Shown: positions 4,018 through 27,755 of the stretch, in pieces
How the letters are laid out: every line of letters begins with the position of its first letter
Position numbering within the stretch: position 1 is the first letter of the stretch
IMG/VR virus record: IMGVR_UViG_3300026510_000112
Span: 1-28,167 of that record
From: a virus
DNA: 28,167 nucleotides
Strand: one strand, 5' to 3'
Notes under the pieces: model-generated
Told to the model about the DNA's origin: nothing
The model's input: the letters and a program-made list of their open reading frames with translations, nothing else
Database searches by the model: none
Made by a program: the position numbers and the translations under genes

Positions 4018-4740
4018 TCATGCCGGTGGCGCGAACGTTAGAGCATAGATGGAGATCGACACTGCACCGCTGATGAAGTTCCCCTGGTTACCTGCAAGAA
4101 CAACTGGTGTATCCGCATAAAATGCCTGTGGACCGATCACACCTATGTTGCTGCTGCCAGCATTAAGATCCATATATGAACCAAACTTCCCAAGAGCACC
4201 GGAAACACCGCAATGGAAGTTTGCTGGTCCTGTTATTGTTGTTACAACCCTTGATGAAACACCAAGGCAGATCGAGCGGTTTGGTATAACGACAGTTGAG
4301 TTAACCGTGGCTCCTGACAGGCCGGACAGCGTTTCCTCGATCACCTGCAGCGAGATTGCGCCGCCCAACGCGCCGCGCGCCAGCTCGACGTTCTGGGACT
4401 TGATCAGCACGTCGGCGGACCACGTTGCGCCTGAGCGGACCAGGAGCAGGCTTTCGTCCTCCACCCACACCAGCCAGCCGTTCTTCGGCGGAAGGCGCAC
4501 CCAGGCCCCGCCGGTAAACAGCACCACGTCGTCATCCAATCCGGCCCATGCACCTGTGGCACCGGTAGCGACGATGTAGCGGTCGCCATTGACCGGGCTG
4601 GCTGGGGGCGCAGTCAGATGCCGGTCCTTGACCGACAGTTGGACGAGTCCATCGAGGCGTGAAAGTGACTCGTTGACTGTAACATGCTTCTGCGCTTGTG
4701 CGGCAGCTAGGAGCGGCAGGGCGAGGTTCGGGCTTGTCAT
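4018..4740 (-). CDS. DUF2793 tail-tip or fibre protein
   Basis: Probable tail-tip appendage protein of 240 residues. The DUF2793 signature is at the N-terminus: PNLALPLLAAAQAQKHVTVN, then LDGLVQLSV, PVNGDRYIV and GAWVRLPPKNGWLVWVEDE. After about residue 120 the sequence turns Ser/Gly/Val-rich and lower in GC, ending SVSISIYALTFAPPA, typical of variable receptor-facing domains. The start is ATG 4740, which overlaps the hub stop as ATGA and has GGAGG five bases upstream. A longer open frame to 5598 overlaps the hub gene and is rejected. DUF2793 proteins usually lie just downstream of the GTA-type hub, as here. Receptor binding is inferred. Confidence 0.85.
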   Translation of the reverse strand: MTSPNLALPLLAAAQAQKHVTVNESLSRLDGLVQLSVKDRHLTAPPASPVNGDRYIVATGATGAWAGLDDDVVLFTGGAWVRLPPKNGWLVWVEDESLLLVRSGATWSADVLIKSQNVELARGALGGAISLQVIEETLSGLSGATVNSTVVIPNRSICLGVSSRVVTTITGPANFHCGVSGALGKFGSYMDLNAGSSNIGVIGPQAFYADTPVVLAGNQGNFISGAVSISIYALTFAPPA

Positions 4741-7700
4741 AGTGCCTCCGTGATGGTGATGGTGGTTGCAAGCGGCACGCCACGGCCCAGTGCGCCAATC
4801 TGATAGATGCGGACGGACAGGCTGGCGACCGGCCCGCCGAAATCGGCGGTCTGCATGGCGGCGGTGTAAAGCGCGGTCGGGGTCGCAACCGTCAAGATTC
4901 GCTTGACCGTTGCCCCGGACAGGATTTCGAGCTCGTAGCTTTCGGATGCCTCGGACATGGGAACGTCTGTCAGCACCCAGCTGTCGGCGGAAAGCGATCG
5001 GTCGCGCCGTATCCAGCGCAGATCGAGATCGCCGCCCGCAATCCTCCGCATTCTGGCCTGGGCTGGGGCAAATGGTTTCAGGCCGCGTCCGTTCGGCGTG
5101 AAGGTGAGCGCCTGCATGATGACGTCGGAGGGCGCGGCATTGCCAGGACCGACGCGCCAGTTCCATGGCATTCCAAGATCGGACTCCGTGATGGAGATCG
5201 GCACGGTGGCAGCATCCAGCACGACCACACGCGCGCCGGTAGGCGTAGGGTTGCCGATGGCATCCTCGGTGCCGCGTTGCCCGCGCAGCAGGTGGGTGAG
5301 GCGGTAGCGCCCTGTCGCCACCAGCGATGCCGTGCCCGCCTGCACGATCTCCCAGACGCCGGGCGCGCTTTCCACGGCCAGCGCATTGGCCCCAGCGAGC
5401 AGCTCGTCGTCGGTGACGCTGGTGAGTGTGCCGGAACTGATGTCGATCAGAAGCTGGCTGCCATTGTCCAAAATATCGGTCGGCCCGGCGGTGAAATCGG
5501 CGGCAAGCCGCCCCATGCGCGCCGCCTGGCCCAGCGCGTCGAGCAGTTGGAACCCGGAATTGCTGGCGCTGCGCCAGACAGCTGCCGTTCCATACCATGG
5601 ATTTGCAAATACAGCTGCATATGGGCGATGCGTCGGCACTGTGTCGGCCAACTGCGGCAGGTCCATCATCACCACGTCGGCAGGACCGAACACCGCCGGT
5701 GCGTACAAATGTGTAGCTCGAACCTTGCCGGGTGGCATATCATAGATATCCGGATCGGATCGTGTTGCCTCGATCGTCCGTTGACCTGCATCGCCGATGC
5801 GCGCGATACGGTAGTCCACCTTTCGCCCGTCATGGTCGAGCGCGATAACGTCGCCAGGATCGAGCGCGATGTGGGAGGGCGGCAGCTTGGCTGTGAGCGT
5901 CTCCCGACCGGCCCAGGCTTCCAGCAATGCCCGGCGGCAGCTGCGATCCGCTTCCTCAAGCGATACCGCCAGCGGGAATTCGGTGGATGCTACGCCGTTT
6001 GCCACAACATCGACGCGGCGGGCCTCGACCGTGACCGCATCGTATTCTTCGTCTGCACGAACCAGCTTCCATTTCAACGCCTTGGGCAGCTCTGTCTCCT
6101 GACCGCGCACAAGTTCCATGCTCTCACCATTCGAGCCGACCATATCGTCGGGGCGGATGGTGGCAGCAGGCACACGACCGCGCGTTCGGAACACGATCTT
6201 GCCACCACTCTCAACGGCATCGAAGCCGAAGTGCTGCGCCAGAACCGAAATTGACGTGCGAGGGCTTTCCACTGCAGTCACGGTGAAACCTGTCACGATT
6301 TCGGATATTTCGGAGACGTCCACCAAGGTATCGGACAGCCCGGCCGCGCGGCAGAGATCGCGCACCAGCGCGCCCAGCGGTACCTGCCCAAGTCGCCCGC
6401 TAATCCAGTGTCCAAGCCTCCAGTTTGATGTATCTGACCATACATCTTCTCTGGATGGGAAGTCAGGATATGGCCGCGCATCAAACGTCCACACGGTTGC
6501 GTTTTTAACATCAATCATTGGGCCAAAATACATAGTGGACATTGGATTGTTTGTTGGATCAATCCAGTATCCAAGCATCGCCTCGATATAGCACCGCTGG
6601 ATGGCTTCATCCTGCCAGCCACGCGAAAAGTGCGGCAAAGCGCTTTCGGCCGACTTCTGATCATAGAACACATTTGGCTGATTTGTTCCGCGATCGACCG
6701 CTGGACAGCCTATCTCCGTGAAACGAATAGGTTTTGATAGCGGCATCCAGTCTGTTGGTGTTGTGTTTTCCACCCCGCCAATCCTGTCGTAATGTCTGTT
6801 TCCCCACCACGCGTGGATATCCTTGGGCCTAAATACCCATGGCTTGTTGTATGAAGCGTCGGTAATTGGAGTGCGGATTTGGGCGTCTCTGTCTGAATCA
6901 GAGGCATAGAACCAGTCGAACCACTCGCCGCCCTCTATATTGGCCTTGAGATAGTCAAGATCACGGATAGATGACCATCCGGCCTGCGCGTCCATGTGGT
7001 CTGTGCCGTCGCGCCAGTCGGAAAGCGGCAGGTAATTGTCGATGCCGATGAAGTCTATGGCCGGATCAGCCCAGAGCGGGTCGAGATGGAACAATGCATC
7101 TCCAGATCCGTCCTGCGGCTGGTGACCGAAATACTCGCTCCAGTCGGCGGCATAGCTGATCTTCGTGCCGACCCCGAGGATCGTGCGCACGTCGGCTGCC
7201 AGCTGCCTCAGTGCCGCCACCGCCGGAAACCCAGTGGCGCTGTCCCGGATCGTGGTCAGCCCCCGCAGTTCCGAACCGATCAGGAAGGCATCGACGCCGC
7301 CCGCTGCCTTGCAGATGTGGGCGTAGTGCAGGATCATCCGCCGATAGCCCCAGTCGGCGCCCCCGGCCCAGGTAACGTTTTCGCCCGAGACGGTAAAATC
7401 CGAGATCTGCGCATTCCCGAAGAATGCATTGACCTGTCCGGTCGCGGCTGCAGTCTTGTCCACGGTGCCGGTGTAGCCGGCGGCCGGCGTACAGGTGATG
7501 CGCCCGCGCCATGGGTGCGCGCTCTGCGCGATGCCAACAGCGTTGTCGGAATATGGGTTCGGCAGGGTGTTTCCGGATGGAATGTCCATCATCAGGAAGG
7601 GATAGAAAGTGACACGATAGCCACGCGCCTTCATCTCCTTGATCGCCTGCACCACAGAGAAGTCTGCTGGCGTGCCGCCATAGTTCACCTTTCCATTTAC

Positions 7701-8684
7701 ATCTGTGCTGATCAGATGCGCGCCAGACCTGTTCACACCGTTCACGTCCCATGTTTTCGGCGTTGTTATTTTTGTTGCTGTCTCGACGCCAGGCTTCAGC
7801 TGGCAGTTGCCCGCGCGAAGATCGAGGCCGAACCAGCTGACCACAAGCGAGACGTTCTGCACGGCTGGCGCTGCTGATTTCAGGTTGTCGAGCGCCGCCA
7901 GGATGTCAGGCTTTACTGTGGCGTTGTTCACATTTTCAGAGGTCGTGTTGCCACTGGTGCCGCGCGAGATCGGCTCTGTTGCATAAACGAACTCGCCGGA
8001 GCCGGGTATCATAGTAACCGATTTCACCAACCCTTCAGCGGTTGCGGTCTCCACAAGCGGGCGGAACACCTCGAAGGACAGTTGCGGGATGCGATTGCCG
8101 AATTGTTCCAGCGGCAGTTCCTCGAACATCACATAGGCCGTGCCACGATAGGCAGGGGCATTGCCGGTTCCCATTTTGGCCTCAATGAACGGGTCCGGTT
8201 GTTGGGTCTTGTCGCCGGTGTAAATCCGCCATGTGACGCCGGAGAGATCGAGCGGTTTGCCATCGGCCCAGATGCGCCCGATGCCGGAAATCGGCCCTTC
8301 GCACAGGGCCACCGCGAAAGACGCGGAATAAAGATAGGCCGTGGTCGTCACCTTCGGCCCGCCGCCCTTGCCGCCGCCCTGCGTGGTTGTGTTCACGGTT
8401 TCGGTAAAATCCGTGGCCCAGATGATGTTGCCACCGAGTCGCATCCGACCCCAGACACGCGGGATCACCGCACCATCGGTTGATGTGGTCACAGCGAGGT
8501 TCTCAAGCCGCGCCCCATCGATGCGCTGCCCCGGCGCGAGCGATGAGACGATCCAGCTGTCCACCAGCGAACCAGCCATAGAACCGATGGCCCCGCCGAT
8601 GGTGGCGGCGGATACGCCGAGAACTGCTCCACCAATAGAGGCCCCGATTGCCTGACCGGCTGCTGCAAGTACTATAGACGCCAT
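4737..8684 (-). CDS. GTA-type tail hub protein with TIM-barrel-like domain (host specificity)
   Basis: Large baseplate hub or host-specificity protein of 1315 residues, homologous by layout to Rhodobacter GTA gp15. The N-terminus is a Gly/Ala-rich hydrophobic stretch (1-48) followed by RVWGRMRLGGNIIWATDF. A TIM-barrel-like domain spans roughly 380-760, with WGYRRMILHYAHICKAAGG, FLIGSELRGL, ISYAADWSEYF, DFIGIDNYLPLSDWRDG and the tryptophan-rich WFDWFYASDSD. The C-terminal half carries the hub or gp27-like part (APGVWEIVQAGTA, RYRLTHLLRGQRGTE, SESYELEILSG). These domains probably thread the tail tip and contact or degrade cell-surface material. A stretch encoding the end of the barrel (about 6420-6960) is visibly lower in GC than the flanks. 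It starts 3 bases after the NlpC/P60 stop. Confidence 0.95.
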   Translation of the reverse strand: MASIVLAAAGQAIGASIGGAVLGVSAATIGGAIGSMAGSLVDSWIVSSLAPGQRIDGARLENLAVTTSTDGAVIPRVWGRMRLGGNIIWATDFTETVNTTTQGGGKGGGPKVTTTAYLYSASFAVALCEGPISGIGRIWADGKPLDLSGVTWRIYTGDKTQQPDPFIEAKMGTGNAPAYRGTAYVMFEELPLEQFGNRIPQLSFEVFRPLVETATAEGLVKSVTMIPGSGEFVYATEPISRGTSGNTTSENVNNATVKPDILAALDNLKSAAPAVQNVSLVVSWFGLDLRAGNCQLKPGVETATKITTPKTWDVNGVNRSGAHLISTDVNGKVNYGGTPADFSVVQAIKEMKARGYRVTFYPFLMMDIPSGNTLPNPYSDNAVGIAQSAHPWRGRITCTPAAGYTGTVDKTAAATGQVNAFFGNAQISDFTVSGENVTWAGGADWGYRRMILHYAHICKAAGGVDAFLIGSELRGLTTIRDSATGFPAVAALRQLAADVRTILGVGTKISYAADWSEYFGHQPQDGSGDALFHLDPLWADPAIDFIGIDNYLPLSDWRDGTDHMDAQAGWSSIRDLDYLKANIEGGEWFDWFYASDSDRDAQIRTPITDASYNKPWVFRPKDIHAWWGNRHYDRIGGVENTTPTDWMPLSKPIRFTEIGCPAVDRGTNQPNVFYDQKSAESALPHFSRGWQDEAIQRCYIEAMLGYWIDPTNNPMSTMYFGPMIDVKNATVWTFDARPYPDFPSREDVWSDTSNWRLGHWISGRLGQVPLGALVRDLCRAAGLSDTLVDVSEISEIVTGFTVTAVESPRTSISVLAQHFGFDAVESGGKIVFRTRGRVPAATIRPDDMVGSNGESMELVRGQETELPKALKWKLVRADEEYDAVTVEARRVDVVANGVASTEFPLAVSLEEADRSCRRALLEAWAGRETLTAKLPPSHIALDPGDVIALDHDGRKVDYRIARIGDAGQRTIEATRSDPDIYDMPPGKVRATHLYAPAVFGPADVVMMDLPQLADTVPTHRPYAAVFANPWYGTAAVWRSASNSGFQLLDALGQAARMGRLAADFTAGPTDILDNGSQLLIDISSGTLTSVTDDELLAGANALAVESAPGVWEIVQAGTASLVATGRYRLTHLLRGQRGTEDAIGNPTPTGARVVVLDAATVPISITESDLGMPWNWRVGPGNAAPSDVIMQALTFTPNGRGLKPFAPAQARMRRIAGGDLDLRWIRRDRSLSADSWVLTDVPMSEASESYELEILSGATVKRILTVATPTALYTAAMQTADFGGPVASLSVRIYQIGALGRGVPLATTITITEAL

Positions 8685-10659: not shown

Positions 10660-12663
10660 CTACATGCCCCTCCGCCCCATGGCGACAGCACGGGCAATAT
10701 CGGCGGCGACCTGAGCGCGGGATTGCCGGAAGCTCTCGGCATCACGGGTCTGAATGGTGATGTTGACGGGTGCGGATCCAACGGCGCCATTCGCTACTTC
10801 GCGGCGTGACAAAACACGCTCGCCGCGTTGCAGGATCGCCGGCACCTCGTCTGGTCTCAACCCGGCCCAACCGCCGGAATGCATGCGCGGCGCACCTGCG
10901 AATGCAATTGCCGGCACAGCCCGTGTCTGCCCACCAGATCCAACCATGCCGCCAGAGTGGAAAATCTTAGCCAGCCAACCTCCACCTCCAAAAGACCCGG
11001 ATAGTGCTTGTGCGAGCGGCCCAAGCAGGTATTTACGTGCTGATAGTTGTGCAAAATCTGCCAATATGGATGTCACCAGAGATTTGAATTCCAGCTTCCC
11101 ATTCCGGACAAAATCCCCGATGGCGCTCTCGGCGCTATTGAAAGCACCAACCAGACTGTCGCCGAGACCCTTGCCAAGGTCAGAAGCCTTCTTGATATAG
11201 GCATCCAAAGTTTCCTTGGCCGCGTCCAGACCTGTGGACTGTTCCTTGATTGCTCTAGTCGTGGCCCGAACACCACCAGCAGCTGAACGTTGTGCTTGGT
11301 TCCATGCTGCCAGTGCCTGCTGGTTTCTGGCCACTGCTTCGGCATTGGCCACATAGGCTTCGCGCTGACGGCGCAACCCTTCCTGCAGTATCGGATCGGC
11401 ACCGGACACGTCTCCAACACTGGCATCGAACCGCGCGCCCGCCAGCGCCGATGCCTGACCGATTGGATCATCCTTGAACTTCAGGCGGATTTCGCTCTGG
11501 CGCAGGGACGTGAGGCTTTGCGCCACCAGCGACATGGCGTTGCCTGCGGCTCGTGCCAGTTCGTCGGCCAGCATGGTCGCCTGCGCCGCAGCACCGCCTA
11601 CCGAGCCCGATGCGTCATCCATGGTAGATCGGAACCGGATCGTGGCCAGCGCGGCGTCGGTGAGTTGCTTCAGCATGGTGCGCTGCTCGGCGGTCATGTT
11701 CTCGACGCCGCCCAGCGCAGCGGTATAGGACTCGCGCAGACGCTCGAGCGCCACTGCCTTGTCCTCGATGCCCTTGGCGTCCCGCAGGTCGGCCATGGCG
11801 CCGGCCAGGGCAACGGCATCCTTCATGGTAATGCCCAGCGCCTCGCGCAACTCGTAGACCGGGCCGGTCAGATCGCCCATCGAGATCAGGCTGTTCTGCA
11901 GCTCGGAAATCCGGCCCATGATTTCGAGGTTGCGACTGGCATTGTTGCCAACGTCCAATCCATCGCTTGCCAGTTGCCGCTGTTCCTGACGCAGTTGCTC
12001 GATTTCCGCGTTGACCATGCCGACTTCACCAGCCGCCTTTTCGAATTCGCTGCGGGTTAGGCTGCCGATCTCGCCCAGCGCATCGCGGGCGGCGGTCAAG
12101 CCGACGGCGATCTGGTCGAGCGCCTCGAGCTTGGCCAGATCGCGCTGCACCACCAGAAGCGATCTGGCTTCGCCGGCCAACTGACCGTATTTCTTGACGA
12201 GATCGCCGGTCGGGGCGTTCGCCGCGCGGGCGCTCGAGGCGTATGCGGAAACGGCGGTTTCCAACTTCTTGACGCTGTCAGCTAACTTGCCGCTGGTATC
12301 CCAGGCTTTAATCATGTCAACGATGAACGGCCCGAGAACGCCTGCAACGATGCCGATGGCGATTCCGAGGCCACCGAAGCCCAGCAGCAGGTCTGGCATC
12401 TGGATCGTCAGCGCCCGGAAGTAATCGCCCGTTACCGCGCCTTGCTGGGCCACCTGGTTGAGCTGCATGCCCATGTTGCGCATCGCAAATCTCGTCCCGC
12501 GAGATGTGTTCCCCAATCGACCGAGGCGCCTGTTCAGGCCGTCTACTTCGCGACCGACCATGGAAAATGAACGTTTCCCATCATCGCCGATTCCGCGAAA
12601 TTCGGCGCGCACCTGCTTGCCTCCAGTCGCGGCGATTCGAACGCTGACGCGCTTTTCAGCCAT
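10660..12663 (-). CDS. Tail tape-measure protein
   Basis: Tape-measure protein setting tail length and acting in DNA ejection; 667 residues. It begins KRVSVRIAATGGKQVRAEFR and has a hydrophobic segment at about 92-117 (LLLGFGGLGIAIGIVAGVLG). A long Ala/Glu/Arg-rich, helical, coiled-coil-like middle (about 120-500) follows. The C-terminus, with Gly-rich GSFGGGGWLAKIFHSGGMVG, AGLRPDEVPAILQRGERVLS and ITIQTRDAESFRQSRAQVA, is the common end of GTA-like and lambdoid tape measures. With the usual approximate scaling (0.15 nm per residue) the tail would be near 100 nm. It follows the tail-chaperone frameshift gene, as in lambda. Confidence 0.93.
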   Translation of the reverse strand: MAEKRVSVRIAATGGKQVRAEFRGIGDDGKRSFSMVGREVDGLNRRLGRLGNTSRGTRFAMRNMGMQLNQVAQQGAVTGDYFRALTIQMPDLLLGFGGLGIAIGIVAGVLGPFIVDMIKAWDTSGKLADSVKKLETAVSAYASSARAANAPTGDLVKKYGQLAGEARSLLVVQRDLAKLEALDQIAVGLTAARDALGEIGSLTRSEFEKAAGEVGMVNAEIEQLRQEQRQLASDGLDVGNNASRNLEIMGRISELQNSLISMGDLTGPVYELREALGITMKDAVALAGAMADLRDAKGIEDKAVALERLRESYTAALGGVENMTAEQRTMLKQLTDAALATIRFRSTMDDASGSVGGAAAQATMLADELARAAGNAMSLVAQSLTSLRQSEIRLKFKDDPIGQASALAGARFDASVGDVSGADPILQEGLRRQREAYVANAEAVARNQQALAAWNQAQRSAAGGVRATTRAIKEQSTGLDAAKETLDAYIKKASDLGKGLGDSLVGAFNSAESAIGDFVRNGKLEFKSLVTSILADFAQLSARKYLLGPLAQALSGSFGGGGWLAKIFHSGGMVGSGGQTRAVPAIAFAGAPRMHSGGWAGLRPDEVPAILQRGERVLSRREVANGAVGSAPVNITIQTRDAESFRQSRAQVAADIARAVAMGRRGM

Positions 12664-12666
12664 TGA

Positions 12667-13328
12667 TCATTCCTCGCTCTTTTCATTCATAGCCCGCACC
12701 ATCACCGCCTCGATCGGGGGCAGCAGGTGGCCGACCGACGCGGGATCGACGCCCAGCGCCCCGGCCAGAGCCAGCGCCGCGCCCATGTCCAAGCCGATGA
12801 TGCCGCCGGCGGGCGCCATGCGCAGCTGCCCACCGAGACGTCCCACCAGGTCCCAGACTTGGCATCCTTCAATGGTTTGTGGTGCATTCAGACGTCGTGG
12901 GCATTCTTCACAGAAGCCTTCGCAACTTTCACAGTAGTCGCCGCCCCCGCAGAACTCCCATTCTGCAAGGGCGGTGAGGCGTTTTTTTCCGATTCCAACG
13001 TGTGCAAAGGTGCCAGATATAGCGCCCTGAATGCTAGGTAGACCCATGGGACGTCCATCAGCGCGTCGATCAGTGCAGGTGCGGGTGTCTCCAGCACCTC
13101 GCCGTCGGCATCACCAACGCCTTCCCATTCGATGATCACGCGCCGCGCCCAGGCTTTCGCCTCGAGCACGCCCGCATCGATATCGGCATCTTCCTCGAAC
13201 GCGCCGGCTTCGGCCATTTCCTGCCACACCTGCGCCGCGATGGAGCTCAGCGGCGGGTGCACCTTGACACGCACGCCACGCCCGATGTCGAGCCATTTCG
13301 GCTCGCTTGAAAGGTTCAATCTGATCAT
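12667..13328 (-). CDS. Tail assembly chaperone, -1 frameshift product (GT-like)
   Basis: Predicted fusion made when ribosomes slip -1 on A AAA AAC (12987-12981). They leave the upstream chaperone frame after codon 116 and continue in the frame ending at 12667, giving about 220 residues. The added part reads RLTALAEWEF, a cysteine cluster (CGGGDYCESCEGFCEEC), RLNAPQTIEGCQVWDLVGRL, then an Ala/Gly-rich helical end (DMGAALALAGALGVD). That tail resembles small ORFs usually annotated separately before tape-measure genes in alphaproteobacterial phages. This frame has no convincing start of its own within the overlap. In lambda the equivalent GT protein binds the tape measure and recruits tube subunits. 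Slip site and hairpin are seen; frameshifting in vivo is inferred. Confidence 0.72.
12888..13328 (-). CDS. Tail assembly chaperone, unshifted product (G-like)
   Basis: Zero-frame tail chaperone of 146 residues. It begins MIRLNLSSEPKWLDIGRGVR and has VKVHPPLSSIAAQVWQEM, AKAWARRVIIEWEGVGD and LMDVPWVYLAFRALYLAPL, consistent with phage tail-chaperone proteins between tube and tape-measure genes. After the slip site (codons GAA AAA AAC) it continues for about 30 low-complexity residues to the stop. Its ATG overlaps the tube-protein stop (TGATG), so it is coupled to tube synthesis. No catalytic motif is present or expected. Confidence 0.85.
   Translation of the reverse strand: MIRLNLSSEPKWLDIGRGVRVKVHPPLSSIAAQVWQEMAEAGAFEEDADIDAGVLEAKAWARRVIIEWEGVGDADGEVLETPAPALIDALMDVPWVYLAFRALYLAPLHTLESEKNASPPLQNGSSAGAATTVKVAKASVKNAHDV
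12941..12987 (-). promoter_or_regulatory. Programmed -1 ribosomal frameshift signal
   Basis: The slippery heptamer A AAA AAC (12987-12981) is phased as X XXY YYZ in the chaperone frame. Six bases (GCCTCA) separate it from a hairpin at 12974-12941. The 5' arm CCGCCCTTGCAGAA pairs with TTCTGCGGGGGCGG around the loop TGGGAG: 14 pairs, two of them G-U. Slip sequence, spacing and stem all match the classic design, and the overlapping frame downstream is in the required -1 register. Confidence 0.8.
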
Positions 13329-14266
13329 CAGTAACTTGCCACCGTGTTCTTGAGTTCAACTGTGCACATCTGACCTGCCACGCTGTCGAATGCCGCCTGC
13401 CAGTCGAAGCTGGCCTGCACACCCTGCGGCCCCTGGATTTCCACTTTAGGGCGCGGCAGGTAAACCTTGTGCGCCGTCAGCTTCAGGCTGACGGTGCTCG
13501 AGATGGTCCAATCGAACACCAAGGATGCGGAGCCGCCAGCAATCGCCTGGTCCATCAGCACGGTGTCGGCGAAACGCACGTCGATCCGACCGGTGAGCTC
13601 GGACATCGACGGATCGGCCCCGTCGATCTTGCCGTCGGAGCGGATCGTCTCGATGCGGTCGAGGTTGTTTTTGTAGCTCACGTCCGCCGACACGATGTTG
13701 CCGAGGCTGCTGCCGTTTCGCAGGATCGAGCCGTTGAAATGGCCGAAGCGCTGCAGATTCCAGGCGGTCGGTGTGCCCGCTGCCGTGGTGGTGGCGACAT
13801 TCTCGCCCTGGGCCACCATGCTGGCCGTGGCGGTCAGCAGGCCGCGCCGTTCCATGGTCCAGCGCAACTCGTCCATGACGCAGCCGGTATACATCGCAAA
13901 ACGCGGGATCTCTGGTAGGGCGACCTCGATGGCCATGCTCGGCAGGCTCCACGATCCGCTCTTGAAGGTGTGGGTCTTGTTGGTGGTGCCGGTGGTGGTC
14001 GGCGCGCCGAAGGCCGCCTTCAGCCAGAATCCGATGGCCTCGGCGTCGATGGGAATCTCGATATCGCCGTCCGCCGTCACCGCGTCCTTGACCGGCGCCA
14101 GCGGGTCGCGGCCGTATCCGAGCAGTTCGGAGTTCAGGAGCGGCTGTTCGGCCCCCAGCGAAGAGCGGGCAAACGGCATCTGGAAGAAGCCGCTTGCCGG
14201 GGCGATGCCATAGGTCGTCTCGAACGCGGCCGCAAGTTGCGACCGCGCGCCTTGTGCGCGTGCCAT
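13328..14266 (-). CDS. Major tail tube protein
   Basis: Phage tail tube subunit of 312 residues. It starts MARAQGARSQLAAAFETTYG, with ASGFFQMPFARSSLGAEQPL, then GDIEIPIDAEAIGFWLKAAF, a pattern common in tube proteins whose termini assemble into hexameric rings. The C-terminal part, from VYLPRPKVEIQGPQGVQASF to CTVELKNTVASY, is typical of the beta-rich end. A strong SD (GAAAGGA) lies upstream of the ATG. It sits between the tail-terminator gene and the chaperone, where lambda gpV lies. High expression is expected. Confidence 0.88.
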   Translation of the reverse strand: MARAQGARSQLAAAFETTYGIAPASGFFQMPFARSSLGAEQPLLNSELLGYGRDPLAPVKDAVTADGDIEIPIDAEAIGFWLKAAFGAPTTTGTTNKTHTFKSGSWSLPSMAIEVALPEIPRFAMYTGCVMDELRWTMERRGLLTATASMVAQGENVATTTAAGTPTAWNLQRFGHFNGSILRNGSSLGNIVSADVSYKNNLDRIETIRSDGKIDGADPSMSELTGRIDVRFADTVLMDQAIAGGSASLVFDWTISSTVSLKLTAHKVYLPRPKVEIQGPQGVQASFDWQAAFDSVAGQMCTVELKNTVASY

Positions 14267-23442: not shown

Positions 23443-24681
23443 CTACGCCGCCTCCCGCTCGTCCGCGATCTCGTCAAACGAACGGCCATCCCCTTCAAGG
23501 GTGGCCGTTTCGCCTGTCAGCTCCTGCCATCGCTCCACCGCCACATCGACGTAGGCCGGATTCAGCTCGATGCCAAAACACACCCGCCCTGTCGTTTCCG
23601 CCGCGATCAGCGTGGTGCCGGATCCCATGAACGGCTCGTAGACCGCCTGACCGGGGCTGGAATTGTTCATGATCGGGCGGCGCATGCATTCCACCGGCTT
23701 CTGCGTCCCGTGGACCGTTTCCGCGTCCTGATCCTTGTTGGCGATCTGCCACAGCGTGGTCTGCTTGCGATCCCCGACCCAATGGCCCTTGCCGGTTTTC
23801 TTGACGGCATACCAGCACGGCTCGTGCTGCCAGTGGTAATCGCCGCGGCTCAGCACCAGCCGATCTTTTGCCCAAATGATCTGCGAGCGGATCGTGAACC
23901 CGCTGGCGATCAGGCTTTCGGCGACGGTCGTCGCATGAAGCGCGCCGTGCCAGACATAGGCCACGTCCCCCGGAAACAACGCCCAAGCCTCGCGCCAATC
24001 CGCGCGATCGTCATTCAGCACCTTGCCGGTGCGTTTGGTTTTTGCCGCACCTGCCTGGTTGCGCCATGAAGGATCGTACTCCACGCCATATGGCGGATCG
24101 GTGACCATCAGCAGCGGCTTCACCGTCCCGAGCAGTCGTTCCACATCCGTGGCGACGGTGCTGTTGCCGCACAGCAGGCGGTGATTGCCGAGGATCCACA
24201 GATCGCCAGGTTGGCTTACGGGATCCTCCGGCGTCTCCGGCACGTCGTCTTCACCATCGACCGCGCCTTCAGGCCCACCGTCCAACTCGCCAAGCAGGTC
24301 GTCCAGTTCCTCGTCAGAGAACCCGATCAGGTCGATGTCGAATTCCAGCTCCTGCAACGCCTCGATCTCGAGGCGCAGCATTTCCTCGTCCCAGCCGGCA
24401 TTCTCGGCGATCTTGTTGTCGGCGATCACGAGCGCGCGGCGCTGGGCGTCTGTCAGATGATCCAGCGTAATCACTGGCACCTTCTCGAGCCCCAGGCGCT
24501 GGGCCGCCAACAGCCGACCGTGGCCGGCGATGATCACGCCCTCGCCGTCTGCCAGGATCGGATTGGTAAAACCGAATTCCTCGATCGAGGCGGCGATTTG
24601 GGCGATCTGCTCGTCCGAGTGCGTCCTGGCGTTACCTGAATACGGTTCCAGCTTCGCCGGTGGCGTCATCTTGATTTTCAA
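23443..24681 (-). CDS. ParB-like domain fused to DNA adenine/cytosine-N4 methyltransferase
   Basis: A 412-residue fusion. Residues 1-90 are a ParB/Srx-like domain (YSGNARTHSDEQIAQIAASI, EFGFTNPILAD, IIAGHGRLLAAQRLG). A helical, acidic linker spans about 100-155. Residues 160-400 are a beta-class amino-methyltransferase: DPPYGV (195-200, catalytic), then HGTQKP (324-329) and FMGSGTT (351-357, SAM binding), the DPPY-before-FxGxG order. It would methylate adenine-N6 or cytosine-N4; the target site is not predictable here. Phages use such enzymes against host restriction or to mark packaging sites. The start is TTG 24681 (GAGAG about eight bases upstream); ATG 24669 is an alternative. It lies downstream of the tRNA gene. 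Confidence 0.93.
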   Translation of the reverse strand: MKIKMTPPAKLEPYSGNARTHSDEQIAQIAASIEEFGFTNPILADGEGVIIAGHGRLLAAQRLGLEKVPVITLDHLTDAQRRALVIADNKIAENAGWDEEMLRLEIEALQELEFDIDLIGFSDEELDDLLGELDGGPEGAVDGEDDVPETPEDPVSQPGDLWILGNHRLLCGNSTVATDVERLLGTVKPLLMVTDPPYGVEYDPSWRNQAGAAKTKRTGKVLNDDRADWREAWALFPGDVAYVWHGALHATTVAESLIASGFTIRSQIIWAKDRLVLSRGDYHWQHEPCWYAVKKTGKGHWVGDRKQTTLWQIANKDQDAETVHGTQKPVECMRRPIMNNSSPGQAVYEPFMGSGTTLIAAETTGRVCFGIELNPAYVDVAVERWQELTGETATLEGDGRSFDEIADEREAA

Positions 24682-26183: not shown

Positions 26184-26524
26184 ACTTCAATTACCTCCAC
26201 ACCTTGGGCAGCCGCCACCGCCCGGCGCACCTCGTAGTCGCGGGTCGGCACGCCCTTGGCGTCCTCGTAGATCGTCCGACCTGTCGCCAAGTCTGTATAG
26301 GCGAAATCCATGGTCAGCCGCATGCGCCGCCCTGTGCGCGTCAGCAGCGGGCCATCGCGACCTTCCAGTTCCAGCACCACCTGCCGGCGCAGATCGGCGA
26401 TCTCGCCCGCCCGCTCCAGCAGGCAGAGCTCTGCCCAACGCTTCGCCTCGCGCTTGGAGTCGAACGGGATCCCATCCAGCTCTGTGCGCTTTGCGGCGTA
26501 CTTGTTCCGACGTTTCCGGATCAT
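26180..26524 (-). CDS. DUF1064-like PD-(D/E)XK nuclease-type phage protein
   Basis: A 114-residue protein that I start at ATG 26524, which overlaps the preceding stop as ATGA; the open frame to 26692 overlaps the upstream gene and is rejected. Motifs are NKYAAKRTELDGIPFDSKRE, AKRWAELCLLERAGEI, LTMDFAYTDLATG, IYEDAKGVPTRDY and EVRRAVAAAQGVEVIEV. The order E (FDSKREAKR), D (MDFAY), ExK (YEDAKG) fits a PD-(D/E)XK endonuclease core, as in DUF1064. It probably acts in phage DNA recombination or repair. The catalytic assignment is inferred from the motif pattern. Confidence 0.85.
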   Translation of the reverse strand: MIRKRRNKYAAKRTELDGIPFDSKREAKRWAELCLLERAGEIADLRRQVVLELEGRDGPLLTRTGRRMRLTMDFAYTDLATGRTIYEDAKGVPTRDYEVRRAVAAAQGVEVIEV

Positions 26525-27369
26525 GCGAAGCACTCCCCGCCGTCGGCCTGACACAGCGCGTCCTCGGTTCTCAGCGCCCAATCGCCCTGTCGCGCCATGA
26601 AGTCGCGCATTTCGGCGCGCGTGTATCGTTTCGACCAATGCGCCGCCGATCTGGCGGACAGGTTGGACGCCAGCGCCTCCATCCGTTCCCACCAGGCCGC
26701 GCGATCAGGAAACTCGCGTGTGAAAGCGGCGATATTGGCCTCGCTTTTGAGGAAGCACCCGTCGCAGTTGCCAAGCCAGCACCGGCCGCCCACATTCGGC
26801 AGATGCAGGTCGAACGGCTGCCGGTGCCAGAAGGCGACAACATCGTGCCGGGACACGCCAGCATCGGCGAGCGGGGTCCAGACAGTCCAGCGATCTCTGG
26901 GGGCGGGCTTGTTCAGGCGGTCTGGCTCATCGGCACGCAAGCCGACGCAGTTGGTCCAATGGTCCCAGCCCAGACTGCGGAGGTAGCGCTTTGCGGTCCT
27001 GACCTTCAGTTCCGTGGTGCAGAACCGCGCCTGCTGATTCGGCAGGTAGCGGCGCTTGCGGATCAGCGCCTCGAACGGCGCGCCATCCCGCGCCGCGCTA
27101 TTGTGGCTGACGATCTCGAAGAATGGCGTGTCGGGTCGGTATTCTAGCCACACGATCCGCACCGCCCAGCGCCGACTGACCTCGGCCACGAAATCGAGTG
27201 TCTGCGGCATTTCCCGGCCGGTGTTCTGGAACGTGACCTGCACGCGATCCGGCAGGGGTCCGTTGGCCTCGAGTATCTGGTGCAGCATGAAGGCGGAGGT
27301 GCGACCGCCGGAAAAGGCGATCTGCACATTGCCGTCAGGCAAGGCGTATGGCGATGTCGATCCCGGCAT
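26521..27369 (-). CDS. PAPS reductase-like protein (adenine nucleotide alpha-hydrolase fold)
   Basis: A PP-loop ATPase-fold protein of the phosphoadenosine phosphosulfate reductase family, about 282 residues. SGGRTSAFML near residue 20 is the PP-loop, and VQVTFQNTGREMPQTLDFV follows as in PAPS reductase. RFCTTELKVRTAKRYL carries one Cys, and CWLGNCDGCFLK carries three; the four together could bind an iron-sulfur cluster, as in some non-assimilatory relatives. Many phages carry such genes in early regions; the substrate is not known and need not be PAPS. ATG 27369 has GGGG eight bases upstream; GTG 27375 overlaps the previous stop and is an alternative start. Confidence 0.85.
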   Translation of the reverse strand: MPGSTSPYALPDGNVQIAFSGGRTSAFMLHQILEANGPLPDRVQVTFQNTGREMPQTLDFVAEVSRRWAVRIVWLEYRPDTPFFEIVSHNSAARDGAPFEALIRKRRYLPNQQARFCTTELKVRTAKRYLRSLGWDHWTNCVGLRADEPDRLNKPAPRDRWTVWTPLADAGVSRHDVVAFWHRQPFDLHLPNVGGRCWLGNCDGCFLKSEANIAAFTREFPDRAAWWERMEALASNLSARSAAHWSKRYTRAEMRDFMARQGDWALRTEDALCQADGGECFA

Positions 27370-27371
27370 GC

Positions 27372-27755
27372 TCACATCCCCATTGCTTCGCGGTACATTT
27401 CCAGCACTGCCTGTTCCTCAGCCAGATCGTCCTTGTCGCGCTTGCGCTCCCTGATGATTATGCGCAGCACCTTGGTGTCGTATCCGCGCCACTTGGCCTC
27501 GGCCATCACCTCCTTCTGCTGGTCCGCGATATCCTTCTTCTCGGCGTCCAGGCGCTCAAAGCGCTCGACGAACTGGCGCAGTTCGGCAGCGCTCACGCGA
27601 TACGCTTTTTCGCTCGCCGCATCGAAATCTGGATCGCTTTTCATCGGCACCCGGCCTCCAGAATTCGCCGCGCGCTTGAGATCGTCGAGCGTGAATGGTT
27701 CTGTCTCCCTACCATCAGGCGCTATGATCGTCATCGTCGTTTCATCCATTGCCAT
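27372..27755 (-). CDS. GapR/DUF2312 nucleoid-associated protein
   Basis: A 127-residue protein whose C-terminal 75 residues are GapR/DUF2312: SAAELRQFVERFERLDAEKK, DIADQQKEVMAEAKWRGYDT, KVLRIIIRERKRDKDDLAEE and QAVLEMYREAMGM. In Caulobacter GapR is a clamp-like dimer or tetramer that binds overtwisted DNA and supports replication. A phage copy may act on phage replication or host chromosome topology. The first 50 residues (MTIIAPDGRETEPFTLDDLK) are an extra N-terminal segment. GGGAG precedes the ATG. The family call is firm; the phage role is inferred. Confidence 0.93.
   Translation of the reverse strand: MAMDETTMTIIAPDGRETEPFTLDDLKRAANSGGRVPMKSDPDFDAASEKAYRVSAAELRQFVERFERLDAEKKDIADQQKEVMAEAKWRGYDTKVLRIIIRERKRDKDDLAEEQAVLEMYREAMGM

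Follow-up and report, generated by a model that had tools for sequence, protein, structure and literature searches.

A frameshift connecting the tail assembly chaperone G with its extended form GT is established for phage lambda and is widespread in tailed phages (PMC5009743, reviewing Levin 1993; Xu, Hendrix and Duda 2004). For the Caulobacter phage phiCbK, a chaperone frameshift located ahead of the tape-measure gene has been published for gp93/gp94 with the heptamer AAAAAAC, and GGGAAAC is found in phage Colossus (PMC3556154). In E. coli, ribosomes shift far less readily on A_AAA_AAC than on A_AAA_AAG (PMC5009743). Here we describe a chaperone locus in a viral DNA stretch of 28,167 nucleotides, which is designated the window in the following. 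Judged by its sequence features, the locus probably encodes a programmed -1 ribosomal frameshift of the lambda G/GT type, a reading to which we assign a probability of about 0.94.

All features of the locus are located on the minus strand. A tail tube protein (13328..14266; Phage_tube_2, E 3e-57) and a lambda-type tape-measure protein (10660..12663; Tape_meas_lam_C and PHROG tape measure families) flank a pair of overlapping ORFs, the second of which is in the -1 register. The first ORF, designated G (12888..13328, 146 amino acids, 0-frame, from the ORF list and translation), matches PHROG 313 'Tail assembly chaperone' with E 1.5e-5, and its homologues carry tail assembly chaperone names. These identities support the proposal of the earlier note that a G/GT-type frameshift is situated between the tube and the tape-measure genes. 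Beyond the tape-measure gene, the module encodes distal tail, hub and GTA_TIM proteins similar to those of gene transfer agents, among them a GTA_TIM or Rcc01698-like tail protein of 1315 amino acids (4737-8684); in its distal tail part, the module is reminiscent of the Rhodobacter capsulatus gene transfer agent. The host of the phage is a Rhodobacteraceae-type bacterium. Elsewhere, the window encodes a C-5 cytosine DNA methylase with an N-terminal helix-turn-helix (1109-2356), an N6/N4 DNA methylase fused to a ParB-N domain (23443-24681), and a phage-borne GapR-like DNA-binding protein (27372-27755), which adjoins a protein with a PAPS-reductase domain (26521-27375).

The elements of the frameshift site can be read directly from the strand and its translation. 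The heptamer A_AAA_AAC (12981..12987) lies in the G frame, whose codons at this position are GAA AAA AAC, and thus has the X_XXY_YYZ phase. It is followed by a 6-nt spacer, GCCTCA (12975..12980), and by a hairpin composed of the 5' arm CCGCCCTTGCAGAA (12961..12974, supported by the fold and by pairing in relatives), the loop TGGGAG (12955..12960) and the 3' arm TTCTGCGGGGGCGG (12941..12954, supported by the fold and by a codon bias that favours pairing); the stem comprises 14 pairs, two of which are G-U. In the -1 frame, no stop codon occurs between about 13110 and a TGA at 12669-12667, and the tape-measure ATG follows at 12663. After the slip, this frame encodes 104 amino acids, designated the T domain (12667..12981, delimited by an alignment of 54 diverse T domains and by AlphaFold2), and the predicted GT fusion comprises 220 amino acids with the junction ...LESEK[N/K]RLTALAEWEF.... 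Every component of the signal that had been reported earlier, i.e. the in-phase heptamer, the spacer and the 14-bp hairpin, was recovered in this reading, as was the open -1 register that extends to 12667, just ahead of the tape-measure gene.

According to the favoured scheme, most ribosomes would terminate at the end of the 0-frame and release the chaperone G, and a minority would be halted by the hairpin while tRNA-Lys and tRNA-Asn occupy A_AAA_AAC, slip back by one base into the -1 frame and append T to yield the GT fusion. If lambda is taken as a model, G would coat the tape-measure protein, the T part would recruit the tube protein, and both G and GT would depart before the virion is completed. 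The comparisons presented here show the anatomy of the signal, its conservation and the selection acting on the RNA stem; that ribosomes slip at this site, how often they do so and how G and GT share the work is inferred. The near-universal use of A_AAA_AAC in this family despite its weakness in E. coli is mildly unusual, and it is conceivable, albeit doubtful, that alphaproteobacterial ribosomes or tRNAs slip more readily at this heptamer, as the weakness in E. coli would imply.

The conservation of the site was determined in 195 loci including the window, which were obtained by scans of viral and genome collections and whose named hosts are mostly Rhodobacterales. A canonical heptamer is present at the boundary in 194 of them (AAAAAAC in 182, GGGAAAC in eight and AAAAAAA in four); the type of heptamer differs by lineage, yet fits tandem slippage in all canonical loci. 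Since a search based on the boundary itself could bias such a census, copies of DUF7697, the C-terminal half of T (see below), were additionally sought by profile in 30 host genomes and the DNA upstream was read; all 79 copies read in this way carry a heptamer in the tandem-slip phase, although they are not all independent, as at least 30 of them are or overlap loci of the first set. The comparison of slip site and stem in homologues had been put forward in the earlier note as a means of refuting the fusion, and both elements turned out to be kept essentially without exception. A nucleotide-level search of phage records gave no match, and at the protein level the fusion was found in 14 phage records, eleven of which belong to R. 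capsulatus phages. A single Rhodobacterales genome can contain as many as six such DUF7697 modules, which suggests several related prophages per strain, and a DUF7697 match is also present in a Caulobacter control genome.

Three deviating cases were treated as sequencing or assembly noise or as decayed copies rather than as a new mechanism. The single locus with a non-canonical heptamer (L123, AAAGAAC) stems from a metagenome-assembled genome and adjoins Ns. In a second one (L002:2990-3020, IMGVR 2517572012), a run of eight instead of seven A residues brings T into the frame of G; the fusion would then result from ordinary translation and the short form from a -1 slip, and this A8 is likely a sequencing error. 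A run of nine A residues in Salibaculum griseiflavum (L148:1990-2010, identical to L221) is followed soon after the slip site by the end of the G frame and puts T out of reach of a single -1 slip, such that a different shift would be needed. The A8 and A9 loci may be either sequencing errors or dead copies.

The T domain matches profiles only in its C-terminal half, namely Pfam PF24752 (DUF7697; 12673..12816, 74.4 bits compared to a gathering cut-off of 27) and PHROG 11212 (phrog_11212, E 5e-18). A literature search for DUF7697 yielded no paper. In the alignment of the 54 T domains, R1, W8, G13, Y16, C17, C20, C24, C27 and G39 are invariant, i.e. conservation sets in at the codon directly behind the slip and includes a CxxC...CxxC motif, whose four cysteines are putative zinc ligands. 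DUF7697 is merely the C-terminal half of the domain reached by the slip, and the half-coverage by both families probably results from gene callers taking an internal start codon. The AlphaFold2 model of T, built from 54 aligned T domains, is confident, with a pLDDT of 93. A Foldseek search of PDB with this model gave nothing significant, and the best match of the T profile to PDB sequences (E 0.0068) was not significant either. When the model was compared to BFVD, several proteins named as tape measure chaperones appeared near the top with probabilities of 0.97-1.00 and E values of only 0.006-0.1; these model-based matches point independently to T as a probable T-like extension.

One alternative to a frameshift is that the downstream ORF is a separate gene with its own start, either ATG 13047 or an ATG near 12817 inside T, which would give an ORF of DUF7697 size, and is perhaps translationally coupled to G. 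The -1 frame of the window does hold ATG 13047 upstream of the slip site, the Pfam and PHROG families hold only the C-terminal part of about 50 amino acids, and the records of two phages with the same arrangement, Nostoc phage Nsp-JY21 and Synechococcus phage Sc-Yong805-1, list the second ORF as a gene of its own that begins approximately 120 nt after the slip. However, 135 of the 195 loci have no ATG, GTG or TTG in the -1 frame ahead of the slip site, and in a dozen loci this frame is closed 6-18 nt ahead of it. Moreover, an internal start would lose the conserved N-terminal part of T including W8 and the cysteines, and separate genes would leave the heptamer and the stem unexplained, which makes this alternative very unlikely. 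The assertion of the earlier note that a conventional annotation would miss the fusion holds for the Nostoc and Synechococcus phages and fails for the R. capsulatus phage records examined, in which a joined CDS is already annotated.

The fusion could also arise from transcriptional slippage on the A7 run, by which mRNAs with one base more or less would be formed and read by ordinary translation. In favour of this process, runs of seven or eight A residues are present in most loci, and the A8 and A9 variants described above exist. On the other hand, the eight loci with GGGAAAC, which include lineages other than Rhodobacter phages, have a homopolymer too short for it, A_AAA_AAC stands in the tandem-slip phase throughout, and the strongly selected downstream stem fits a translating ribosome. 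Slippage at the level of transcription is thus considered very unlikely.

Selection on the RNA supports the frameshift from a different side. The hairpin stretch of the window has a minimum free energy of -30.3 kcal/mol (z -4.4 compared to dinucleotide shuffles, none of 200 being as stable). Of 1000 synonymous recodings of the -1 frame, which preserved the T protein sequence and followed the codon usage of T, none reached this stability (z -3.8). The window contains 88 XXXYYYZ heptamers, both strands being counted, and among these the slip site has the most stable downstream 50 nt. Chance, i.e. an A-rich lysine codon pair next to a GC-rich coding stretch that folds fortuitously, as many stretches of the GC-rich window do, is refuted by the recodings, by this first rank and by the conservation in nearly every relative, and its probability is negligible.

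Across the family, the synonymous recoding test gave median z values of -2.7 to -2.9. Within 132 distinct sequences, 88% of the cells at stem positions are paired, as opposed to 43-57% for partners shifted by 1-3 bases. The number of double changes does not by itself distinguish the true register from the shifted ones, and therefore the claim of covariation rests on the level of pairing, on codon choice and on individual cases. The conserved stem comprises about 12-13 of the 14 pairs, the outermost (12974/12941) and the loop-closing pair being variable in relatives, and the stem is weaker in a few divergent loci. Codon usage in T shows that the stem is held by synonymous choice: the Leu5 codon is CTC or CTT in 122 of 122 cases and never CTG, the commonest leucine codon elsewhere in T, and the Gly12 codon is GGG in 102 of 115 cases compared to 18% elsewhere. 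In the window, a compensatory pair of changes (GCC to GCA and, on the opposite arm, GGC to TGC) converts a glycine, which is conserved in 127 of 131 relatives, into cysteine, so that a conserved protein residue was apparently sacrificed for an RNA pair.

Overlapping coding is not the cause of the stem, since 53 loci in which the 0-frame stops one codon after the slip keep the same stem (median z -2.9). In this early-stop class (L021, L026, L032, L034 and about 50 others), which has the AAC GCC TGA type of sequence, G extends hardly beyond the slip site. The G proteins of the other class carry a seemingly dispensable tail of about 30 amino acids, which is of low complexity and has a high content of S, P, G, A and T. 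A Shine-Dalgarno-like upstream stimulator as in dnaX was considered and is not a conserved part of the signal, such tetramers being present in only 39 of 131 relatives. The existence of the downstream structure and the selection acting on it are supported by the comparisons given above, and the stem is a putative stimulator of the slip; in frameshifts of the G/GT type, such downstream structures are frequent without being obligatory.

With the identification of DUF7697 and PHROG 11212, both of unknown function, as the C-terminal half of a chaperone extension reached by frameshifting, a gap in the databases is closed; as a consequence, gene callers likely miss the fusion in many Rhodobacterales prophages. 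Furthermore, a large family in which three types of heptamer are combined with one conserved stem represents a good natural data set for studying the co-evolution of slip site and stem.

In comparison to known systems, the locus shares with lambda G/GT the position ahead of the tape-measure gene, the -1 direction, the combination of a short and an extended chaperone and an in-phase XXXYYYZ heptamer, and differs from it by the heptamer itself (A_AAA_AAC), by the conserved strong hairpin of 12-14 bp and by the four conserved cysteines of T. Also close are the Rhodobacter capsulatus phages RcKai, RcDormio, RcKemmy, RcMeacham, RcKvothe and others (PMC8601537), which have homologous G and T proteins with 40-45% identity over the fusion, the same gene order and the same stem at the same place; they differ by the heptamer G_GGA_AAC and by T-A stem pairs (CTTGC/GCAAG) at positions that are occupied by T-G pairs in the window. 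The likeness to phiCbK and Colossus concerns the position, the heptamers and the alphaproteobacterial hosts, and is based on the published arrangement rather than on protein homology. Among the BFVD entries, the tape-measure chaperones of Enterobacter phage F20, Klebsiella phage Solomon and Escherichia phage vB_EcoS_W011D match the T model with Foldseek probabilities of 0.98-1.00, at E values of only 0.009-0.1 and 15-21% identity; as judged from the model, they are likely homologues of T. Because of the lambda precedent, the Caulobacter heptamers and a homologous gene pair that is already annotated as joined, the locus is of a known kind: it is a very clean, fresh example of a long-known type of siphophage recoding rather than a new phenomenon.
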